Positions 34,258-36,634 of a stretch of DNA of 64,000 nt are shown one piece after another. The notes under the pieces are model-generated. The model made no database searches, was not told the origin of the DNA, and was given only the letters and a program-made list of their open reading frames with translations. The translations under genes and the position numbers were made by a program. Numbering within the stretch: the first letter of the stretch is position 1; the number at the start of each line of letters is the position of its first letter. The stretch is from Blautia sp. Marseille-P3087. Its GTDB lineage: Bacteria; Bacillota; Clostridia; Lachnospirales; Lachnospiraceae. The DNA lies in contig NZ_LT635539.1 of NCBI RefSeq assembly GCF_900120195.1, forward strand, positions 316,830 to 380,829. Direction: 5' to 3'.

Positions 34258-34323
34258 ACAAACATATTAATTATCGTTTTTGTTCAAAATTAATATTATA
34301 TTGTGTCTAAGGAGGAAAACAGG

Positions 34324-34743
34324 ATGGTTGAACTGATCGTAGGTAAGAAAGGTAAGGGCAAAACAAAAGTACTGTTAGACAAAGTGAACGGCGCAATTAA
34401 AGAAGCCAATGGCAGCATTGTTTACTTAGATAAAAGTGCAAAACATATGTATGAATTAAATAATAAAGTTCGTCTGATCGATGTATCTGGATATCCGATT
34501 AAGAATGCAGACGAGTTTGTAGGATTTGTTTGTGGTATTATTTCTCAGGATCATGATCTTGAGCAGATTTATCTTGACAGTTTCCTGACAACAGCGAAAC
34601 TTGAGGGACAGGATGTTACAAATGCATTAGAGCAGTTAAGTGCAGTTGGCGAGAAGTTCAACGTAAAATTTGTTGTAAGTATGTCTCTTGACAAAGAAGA
34701 AGTTCCTGCTTCCTTACAGGACAAGATTATTACAGCATTATAA
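34324..34743 (+). CDS. Small P-loop protein of unknown function
   Basis: The 139-residue protein begins with a Walker A motif, GKKGKGKT (about 7-14), and has an acidic stretch LEQIYLDSF (about 80-88) that could be Walker B. It has no membrane segment. Similar small proteins in Lachnospiraceae are sometimes labelled PilT-like, but there is no pilus context and I do not support that name. The start has GGAGG eight bases upstream. It is monocistronic, between its own promoter and a strong terminator, just before the mgtE leader. Confidence 0.7.
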   Translation: MVELIVGKKGKGKTKVLLDKVNGAIKEANGSIVYLDKSAKHMYELNNKVRLIDVSGYPIKNADEFVGFVCGIISQDHDLEQIYLDSFLTTAKLEGQDVTNALEQLSAVGEKFNVKFVVSMSLDKEEVPASLQDKIITAL

Positions 34744-34883: not shown

Positions 34884-34912
34884 TTGACTTTTAAGAAGGC
34901 ATACGTTATAAT
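34884..34912 (+). promoter_or_regulatory. Promoter of the mgtE leader
   Basis: TTGACT at 34884-34889 and TATAAT at 34907-34912 are spaced by 17 bases. Transcription should start near 34919, about 330 bases before the mgtE ATG. Confidence 0.75.
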
Positions 34913-34956
34913 GTGTACGTCAAAAAAGAATTCTAAAGTAAAGGCAGGTGAACAGA

Positions 34957-35046
34957 ATGGATAATTGTGATTCTCACGGGCGAAGTAGTTACACAGGACA
35001 GAAATTAAAAGCAGTCTGTGAGTACAGTTACTACATTCTGTTTTAA
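34957..35046 (+). CDS. Possible 29-codon leader peptide of mgtE
   Basis: ATG 34957 follows AGGTGA (34946-34951) by five bases. The frame runs 29 codons to TAA at 35044-35046, right after the closing helix of the leader. The peptide begins MDNCDSHGRSSY and ends in EYSYYILF, rich in Tyr and Ser. Its limits coincide with the folded region, so translation would open the closing helix. It could equally be a chance frame inside a structured RNA. Confidence 0.35.
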   Translation: MDNCDSHGRSSYTGQKLKAVCEYSYYILF

Positions 35047-35134
35047 TTTGGTTATTATTCTCTTTTTCATTTCCAGATAATTTTCTGTTCTGTAAAAATC
35101 CCTGAACACAATTAAGTTCAAATCAGATATTTGA

Positions 35135-35163
35135 CATGTTTTGCAGAAAGACATGCTTTTTTT
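35135..35163 (+). terminator. Terminator inside the mgtE leader
   Basis: CATGTTTT at 35135-35142 pairs with AAGACATG at 35148-35155 (eight pairs, one G-U), followed by C and seven T at 35157-35163. It lies 83 bases before the mgtE start, in the position of an attenuator. Confidence 0.65.
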
Positions 35164-35245
35164 GTGTTGCCATGTTTATTGATGGCAGCTTCTATGGCTA
35201 TGCCTTTTTGTACGATTATTATGGGAAAAAAGGAGGAAATACAGA

Positions 35246-36634
35246 ATGGAAAAAAGGGTACAGGATTATGGAAAAGAAATCCTGAATGTTGTGAGAAGCA
35301 ATGTTTCTCCGGCAGTTCTGGCAAAGAGACTTCAGGATTTCCACGAAAATGATCTTGCAGATGTTCTGGAAGAACTGTCTGTAGTAGAACGCTGTAAGCT
35401 CTATCGTGTACTGGATATGGATATGCTGTCCGATATTTTTGAGTATACGGATGAAGATACCGTAGTAAAGTATCTGGAAGAAATGGAGGTAAAAAAAGCT
35501 GCAGCAATACTGTCAAAGATGGAAACAAATGTACTGGCAGATGTACTTCAGCAGTTTGAACGCTCCAAAAGAAAGATTTTAATTGAGCTTCTTGATGATA
35601 AAGTAAGACACGATATTGAACTGATCACGTCATTTGATGACGATGAGATCGGTAGTCGTATGACAACGAATTATATTGTGATACATGAAAACATCAGTGT
35701 CAAAGAGGCAATGAGTCAGCTGGTCACACAGGCGGCAGAGAATGATAATATCTCAACGATTTTTGTAATCAATGATGCTGAAGAATTTTATGGAGCAATT
35801 GATCTTAAGGACCTCATTATCGCGAGACAGAATCATCCGCTGGAGGAACTGATCGTTACTTCTTATCCATATGTTTATGGAACGGAACTGATTGATGACT
35901 GTATCGAAAATCTGAAAGATTATTCCGAAGATTCGATTCCGGTGCTGGATAATGATAACCGTCTTCTGGGCGTTATTACTTCGGCGAATATCGTAGATCT
36001 TGTTGATGATGAAATGGGAGAGGACTATGCGAAGCTGGCTGGTCTGACTGCGGAGGAAGATCTGCAGGAACCATTGAAAGAAAGTATGAAAAAAAGAATG
36101 CCATGGCTGATCATTCTTTTGGGATTGGGTATGGTAGTTTCTTCTGTTGTTGGGGTATTCGAAAAAGTTGTTACAAATCTGCCGATTATCATGTGCTTCC
36201 AGTCACTGATTCTTGATATGGCAGGAAATGTCGGCACACAGTCTCTGGCTGTCACAATCCGTGTCCTTATGGATGAATCACTTACCGGCAGACAGAAACT
36301 GGAACTTGTACTGAAAGAGATGAAAATTGGCCTCTGTAACGGTGGGGTACTTGGTATTTTATCCTTCGTACTGATTGGTCTGTATATCTGGCTGTTTAAG
36401 GGAAAAACGCTGGTATTTGCATATGCGGTCTCCGGCTGTATTGGTCTTTCCCTGCTTCTGGCAATGCTGATATCAAGTGCGGTGGGAACCTGTATTCCTC
36501 TGTTTTTCAAAAAGATCCATATCGATCCGGCAGTTGCATCCGGACCGTTGATCACCACAGTAAATGACCTGGTTGCGGTTATTTCCTACTATGGACTGAG
36601 CTGGATTTTTTTGATCGAGGTACTTCATCTTTAA
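35246..36634 (+). CDS. mgtE: Magnesium transporter MgtE
   Basis: The 462-residue Mg2+ channel has an N-terminal superhelical domain (about 1-130), a CBS pair (about 135-265) that senses cytosolic Mg2+, and a C-terminal pore of five membrane segments containing PIIMCFQSLILDMAGNVGTQS (about 313 on). AAGGAGG precedes the ATG. It appears to have its own promoter and attenuator-like leader. Its stop overlaps that of the convergent recombinase gene by four bases, and no terminator lies between them. Confidence 0.95.
   Translation: MEKRVQDYGKEILNVVRSNVSPAVLAKRLQDFHENDLADVLEELSVVERCKLYRVLDMDMLSDIFEYTDEDTVVKYLEEMEVKKAAAILSKMETNVLADVLQQFERSKRKILIELLDDKVRHDIELITSFDDDEIGSRMTTNYIVIHENISVKEAMSQLVTQAAENDNISTIFVINDAEEFYGAIDLKDLIIARQNHPLEELIVTSYPYVYGTELIDDCIENLKDYSEDSIPVLDNDNRLLGVITSANIVDLVDDEMGEDYAKLAGLTAEEDLQEPLKESMKKRMPWLIILLGLGMVVSSVVGVFEKVVTNLPIIMCFQSLILDMAGNVGTQSLAVTIRVLMDESLTGRQKLELVLKEMKIGLCNGGVLGILSFVLIGLYIWLFKGKTLVFAYAVSGCIGLSLLLAMLISSAVGTCIPLFFKKIHIDPAVASGPLITTVNDLVAVISYYGLSWIFLIEVLHL

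Follow-up and report, generated by a model that had tools for sequence, protein, structure and literature searches.

The leader that precedes the Mg2+ transporter gene mgtE in Blautia sp. Marseille-P3087 is probably, at odds that we put near two in three, an attenuator built like that of the trp operon around a short upstream open reading frame (uORF), in which the acidic N-terminus of the encoded peptide would serve as the sensor, probably of Mg2+. As far as sequence can settle the matter, this uORF is translated, conserved and specific to the mgtE leaders of Clostridia, and the conserved long-range pairings of the leader make a switch governed by ribosome position plausible. No earlier description of it was found in the literature searched (open-licence papers).

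The mgtE locus and its leader

All positions given here refer to the window, i.e., the whole stretch of 64,000 nucleotides (64 kb) that was analyzed. The gene downstream of the leader encodes an Mg2+ transporter of 462 aa, and the nearest mgtE to it is that of Blautia sp. MSJ-19 (88% identical). The elements of the locus are the following:

34884-34912, + strand: predicted promoter, TTGACT-17-TATAAT, matching the consensus at 11/12 positions
34946-34950, + strand: SD-like AGGTG in front of the uORF, conserved as part of the leader block
34949-34960, + strand: A5, the 5' strand of helix A, over the uORF start codon
34957-35046, + strand: uORF of 29 codons, MDNCDSHGRSSYTGQKLKAVCEYSYYILF, translated to judge by its frame-specific synonymous substitutions
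34957-34986, + strand: conserved ten N-terminal codons, the proposed sensor
34960-34962, 34969-34971 and 34981-34983, + strand: key codons of the uORF, for Asp2, Asp5 and Arg9 (CGA)
34992-35005, + strand: B5, the 5' strand of helix B, at about uORF codons 12-17
35033-35044, + strand: A3, the 3' strand of helix A, at the end of the uORF
35081-35094, + strand: B3, the 3' strand of helix B; in several relatives it is the terminator 5' arm
35135-35163, + strand: terminator-like hairpin (35135-35155, -7.2 kcal/mol) followed by a T7 tract
35239-35254, + strand: mgtE translation start region, complementary to B3
35246-36634, + strand: mgtE (Pfam MgtE, MgtE_N and CBS)

An initial annotation, made from the DNA letters, had already proposed the promoter, a 29-codon frame, a nine-pair closing helix and a terminator. 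All four were recovered: the promoter and the frame lie at the positions listed above, the latter with its AGGTG in front and a TAA stop just past the helix, the helix was exact to the base (34951-34959, AACAGAATG, with 35034-35042, CATTCTGTT), and the terminator is borne out as terminator-like, although the hairpin was missed by our terminator pattern scan because it has too little G+C.

Two further observations concern the surroundings of the leader. Upstream of it, an ORF of 146 aa (34303-34743) has no Pfam match and carries an N-terminal stretch, GKKGKGKTK, that resembles a nucleotide-binding motif. Just 3' of the terminator T-tract, at 35157-35174, lies a motif like TTTTTGGTGTGC, which recurs in loci L002, L003, L008, L012, L018 and L023 and is kept in leaders whose surroundings have otherwise diverged.

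A conserved uORF with an acidic start

The codon-like substitution that the initial annotation had suggested looking for is present, and in this frame only. In a comparison of 51 non-redundant leaders with equal spacing, single-base changes within codons 2-10 leave the amino acid unaltered in 57% of cases in the frame of the uORF, versus 16% expected, and the other two frames reach 24% and 16%, versus 27% and 23% expected. Codons 11-22 are free of stops in all 59 leaders in the uORF frame, as compared to 32 and 27 leaders in the other frames. The codon for Ser6 alternates between AGT and TCT, GAT and GAC are used about equally for Asp, the start is ATG or GTG, and the indels found within the coding block are multiples of three.

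The N-terminal consensus, M/V-D-[S/N]-C-D-S-[H/C/R]-G-R-S, owes part of its constancy to the profile with which the leaders were found, which is not the case for the synonymous pattern and the open frame. Asp5 is invariant (51/51 leaders, encoded by GAT or GAC), position 2 is Asp or Glu in 56 of 59 leaders, and Arg9 is encoded by CGA in 50 of 51, a codon that makes up only 6% of the Arg codons in the mgtE genes themselves. Conservation also covers Cys4, Gly8 and Ser10 and stops there, with Cys4 being swapped for Gly, Ser or Arg and His7 for many residues. Beyond these ten residues, the uORF varies in sequence and in length, from approximately 22 to 50 residues or more. In the variants reading MDSCDSRSRS, Arg7 is likewise encoded by CGA.

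Two interleaved long-range helices

The region 34919-35050 folds at -32.5 kcal/mol, versus -21.6 kcal/mol for dinucleotide shuffles (z -3.2; 0/200 as good). Two helices, A and B, interleave in the leader, with their strands in the order A5, B5, A3, B3. Helix A has a complement better than dinucleotide shuffles (p<0.05) in 39 of 58 leaders, and its partners covary where the start is altered (GAGCAGAATGGAT/GATCTGTTCTGCTTC in L014, TGAAGAGAATGGA/GCCATTCTCTTTT in L117 and GAGAGCAGCTATG/AGTAGCTGCTCTTT in L134), so that the conservation check proposed in the initial annotation for the closing helix came out positive. Depending on the leader, A3, its 3' strand, lies in any of the three reading frames and thus represents a constraint on the RNA. 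Helix B joins uORF codons 12-17 to a segment past the stop and is better than shuffles in 31 of 58 leaders; partner strands were picked as best complements, which makes single cases weak, including that of the window (p 0.08 and 0.03).

Helix B had been overlooked in the initial annotation, which proposed two other alternative pairings. The one between 34951-34957 and 35083-35089 is indeed complementary, but the better and conserved partner of the downstream segment is 34992-35005. The other, between 35082-35087 and 35144-35149 within the terminator, is complementary too, but it did not emerge in folding and was dropped. Coding-like substitution and conserved pairing both being positive, the suggestion of a ribosome-controlled attenuator that uses the short frame is supported; of the accompanying idea that translation opens the closing helix, the attenuator with its short frame is retained, but the switch would mainly consist in the B5/B3 helix rather than in the opening of helix A.

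Two outputs of the predicted switch

The 5' arm of an intrinsic terminator is overlapped by B3 in L115, L122, L124, L125, L127, L128, L130, L132, L133 and L139, and B5 and the terminator 3' arm therefore compete for B3. In a strict count, this overlap occurs in 12 of the 27 leaders with a clear terminator, versus 5.9 expected with shuffled B5 (p 0.004) and 7.9 expected with the B5 of other leaders (p 0.05). A different partner, the mgtE start region, is complementary to B3 in the window and its close relatives. In the window, 35080-35095 can form a 16-nt duplex with that region (p 0.02 versus shuffles, among the best 2% of leader segments). The group of the window counts 16 leaders; B3 ranks in the top 5% of leader segments for this pairing in 13 of them, and 7 of the 16 pass the shuffle test.

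The window was folded in three states, by constrained, pseudoknot-free folding. The predicted accessibility of the mgtE start codon is 0.03 in the ribosome-free leader, rises to 0.47 when a ribosome sits on the first ten codons, and is 0.03-0.04 when B5 or the entire uORF is covered; the probability of helix B reaches 0.80 in the second of these states only. Folding predicts the same switching logic, with the terminator as output, in L122, L126, L127, L132 and L139, and several other relatives give no clean switch. A choice among exclusive pairings made by the position of the ribosome, as in trp attenuation, is thus predicted for the window and five relatives, not for all. We rejected the idea that helix B switches the terminator of the window itself, which the folding does not show.

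Distribution of the element

The element is present in approximately 40 of the 80 closest mgtE loci, with a conserved block, reading AAAGGCAGGTGAACAGARTGGAYAGTTGTGAYAGTCATGGGCGAAGT, that sits some 160-590 nt upstream of mgtE; about half of the close mgtE loci have no recognisable copy. A sequence-only profile of this block (R1), run blind on whole genomes, matches in 45 of 397 genomes of the family, and 29 of the 30 best family matches precede mgtE. The exception, L124, displays a complete leader (1500 onwards) with the uORF MDSCDSQSRS, helix A, helix B and a strong terminator, followed by a gene other than mgtE; it may be a remnant after mgtE loss. A broader profile (R2) extends this to other families of the class, where its matches again lie in front of mgtE, even where the MgtE protein is only 24-26% identical to that of the window. 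A phylum-wide scan gave no clear mgtE-type copy outside the class, with weak matches only. In divergent relatives, the peptide is kept and its flanks are altered.

Acidic uORFs before corA

Several of the weak profile matches that do not lie before mgtE are short ORFs with acidic starts before corA (e.g., MDCDPDSRN in L140 and MDGDAGSK in L177), and two weak phylum-wide matches, from one genus, likewise belong to acidic uORFs, one upstream of corA and the other of a CNNM/CorC gene. Around 10 of 70 corA loci of the class have an SD-preceded uORF starting with M/V-D-x-D-P (L200, L207, L211, L216, L218, L219, L221, L222, L231 and L232), versus none on the reverse strand, and these are spread over several families of Clostridia. 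As a background, other sequence from fetched loci (1.3 Mb, both strands counted) contains ~1,280 short ORFs preceded by an SD, of which 3 start with M-D-x-D or M-D-x-x-D and none with M-D-x-D-P. The corA uORFs apparently form a second, independent family of acidic leader peptides. Among 30 CNNM loci and 8 MgtA loci, only one acidic uORF was found, before mgtA, and the pattern is thus not general to all transporter families. As single cases, we noted a uORF encoding MDSDDHTRRLG before an mgtA-type ATPase gene (L258) and an acidic uORF, MDTSDSCPDPAR, before a CNNM/CorC-type gene (L175, 1519 onwards).

Alternative explanations

As mgtE is a known target of the M-box, and the AGGTGA of the leader is like the M-box start (as remarked in the initial annotation, which could match no more of it), a divergent M-box has to be considered. 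The Rfam searches of the window and the genome refute this reading, to which we give practically no credence. At gathering score, no Rfam family was detected in the 64-kb window; the relaxed matches in the leader all fall under the gathering scores, the best of them being a microRNA model; and for the M-box (RF00380), neither the gathering nor the relaxed threshold gave a match in the window, and the organism's own genome has none. The same search detected M-boxes in the controls Bacillus subtilis and Lactococcus lactis, as well as in relatives (2 of the 31 genomes searched). Since no M-box was found in 19 mgtE loci that lack the motif, it is no simple replacement of the latter either. The Rfam check that the initial annotation had suggested thus supports its setting the leader apart from the M-box.

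The other alternatives differ in what they make of the uORF. Short Erm leader peptides arrest ribosomes in response to a signal, and MDSCDSHGRS might likewise be a programmed arrest peptide that stalls the ribosome near codons 9-10, with the downstream RNA switch unchanged. The signal could be Mg2+, a different metal coordinated by the D/C/D/H residues, or a factor, and the stall would not come from a general acidic destabilisation. Such an arrest would account for a conservation that reaches Cys4, Gly8, Arg9 (CGA) and Ser10 and then ends, and folding, in the window, agrees better with a ribosome remaining on the first ten codons than with its loss; we nevertheless find it unlikely, as the substitutions at Cys4 and His7 fit poorly with a metal site and the corA uORFs have the acidic start alone in common. 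The strong letter conservation over ~45 nt, including the CGA at codon 9 and the SD-flanking AAAGGCAGGTGA, and the stable fold (z -3.2) could also point to an Mg2+-binding riboswitch with an aptamer overlapping the uORF, whose translation would be secondary. This seems improbable to us, as an aptamer would leave unexplained the variation typical of a reading frame (AGT/TCT for Ser, GAT/GAC, in-frame indels, frame-specific synonymy), the divergent relatives keep the peptide and alter its flanks, and there is no Rfam match. Even less weight is given to a conserved small protein acting in trans (e.g., on MgtE) with incidental leader pairings: its N-terminus is conserved and it is always found beside mgtE, yet conservation is confined to ten residues, with a remainder that is variable in sequence and length, and pairings A and B are conserved at the RNA level.

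A proposed mechanism

In the attenuator that we favour, the ribosome would begin the uORF once transcription has passed its start region. At low Mg2+, it would be slowed, stalled or lost within the first ten codons (with Asp2, Asp5 and the rare CGA at position 9), and B5 would then be free to pair with B3. Bound in helix B, B3 would be unavailable both for the terminator (in many relatives) and for sequestering the mgtE start region (in the window and its near relatives), and mgtE would be on. With sufficient Mg2+, the ribosome would pass over B5 and B3 would be released, turning mgtE off; without translation, helix A would enclose B5 together with the uORF start codon, and mgtE would be off too. 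The target being an Mg2+ transporter, we infer Mg2+ as the signal; the direction of the response and the choice between slowing and drop-off are inferred too. That low Mg2+ turns mgtE on through inefficient translation of codons 2-9 nonetheless seems likely. It is the acidic, conserved N-terminus of the peptide that appears to do the sensing; a point against this is that only two of its residues are acidic, fewer than in the classic destabilising runs. The conserved Cys4, CGA9 and Ser10 suggest that more than acidity is at work.

Comparison with known systems

The leader resembles the enterobacterial MgtL, MgtQ and CorL, without detected homology. In MgtL, which precedes enterobacterial mgtA, the starting EPDP is a destabilising motif and ribosomes dissociate at low Mg2+ (PMC11282234), inefficient translation of the uORF thereby turning the gene on (PMC11552253; PMC11282234). 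Here too, a short translated uORF with an acidic N-terminus (Asp2, Asp5) lies before an Mg2+ transporter gene. By motif comparison, however, EPDP and the conserved ten residues have the acidic start alone in common, the mgtE peptide being proline-poor and MgtL proline-rich; the bacterial class and the transporter differ, and the output of MgtL is Rho-dependent termination, whereas the predicted output here is an intrinsic terminator or a hiding of the mgtE start region. The M-D-x-D-P start of the corA uORFs also resembles MgtL. In mgtQ of Salmonella, translation of the short ORF is impeded by Asp2 and Glu5, two residues required for production of the Mg2+ transporter MgtB (PMC8092293). Acidic residues at positions 2 and 5 are thus common to both, but mgtQ is intergenic in the mgtCBR operon, purely translational and devoid of the CGA/Arg-Ser signature. 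As for corL, a uORF before enterobacterial corA whose translation represses corA (PMC11552253), its location corresponds to that of the clostridial M-D-x-D-P uORFs, which have fewer acidic residues, while corL is Rho-dependent and enterobacterial.

The likeness to trp attenuation consists in a leader peptide, three alternative pairings and a predicted output that is off when untranslated, on with an early-held ribosome and off with a ribosome over the second segment; the differences are that no run of regulatory amino-acid codons is found here, that the presumed signal is Mg2+ and that the output in the window would be the mgtE start region. The mgtE motif (SRC-65-1), a candidate RNA before mgtE reported only in Thioalkalivibrio (PMC11109978), is set apart by its description, having another taxonomic range and being a riboswitch candidate rather than a uORF. 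The M-box, which is combined with a conserved uORF in mycobacteria (PMC12810186), resembles our leader in controlling Mg2+ transporter genes and differs from it by an aptamer that is absent here.

Taken more broadly, Clostridia might possess a large unrecognised Mg2+-sensing leader-peptide system that comprises two or more independent kinds, one with M-D-x-C-D-S-x-G-R-S in front of mgtE and another with M-D-x-D-P in front of corA. The ribosome would be the sensor in the place of the M-box, the acidic start would be convergent with that of Salmonella, and the mgtE kind would also need its obligatory CGA, which might serve to delay the ribosome for as long as the nascent chain has not reached a stabilising length; we regard the chances of this wider reading as evenly balanced. 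If true, it would explain how mgtE and corA could respond to Mg2+ without an M-box and would give a function to a conserved short peptide of common gut bacteria. Ribosome-based Mg2+ sensing would then be a strategy that has arisen more than once, rather than an enterobacterial speciality, and the recurrent acidic start (positions 2 and 4 or 5) would provide natural variants for studying how short acidic nascent chains destabilise ribosomes.
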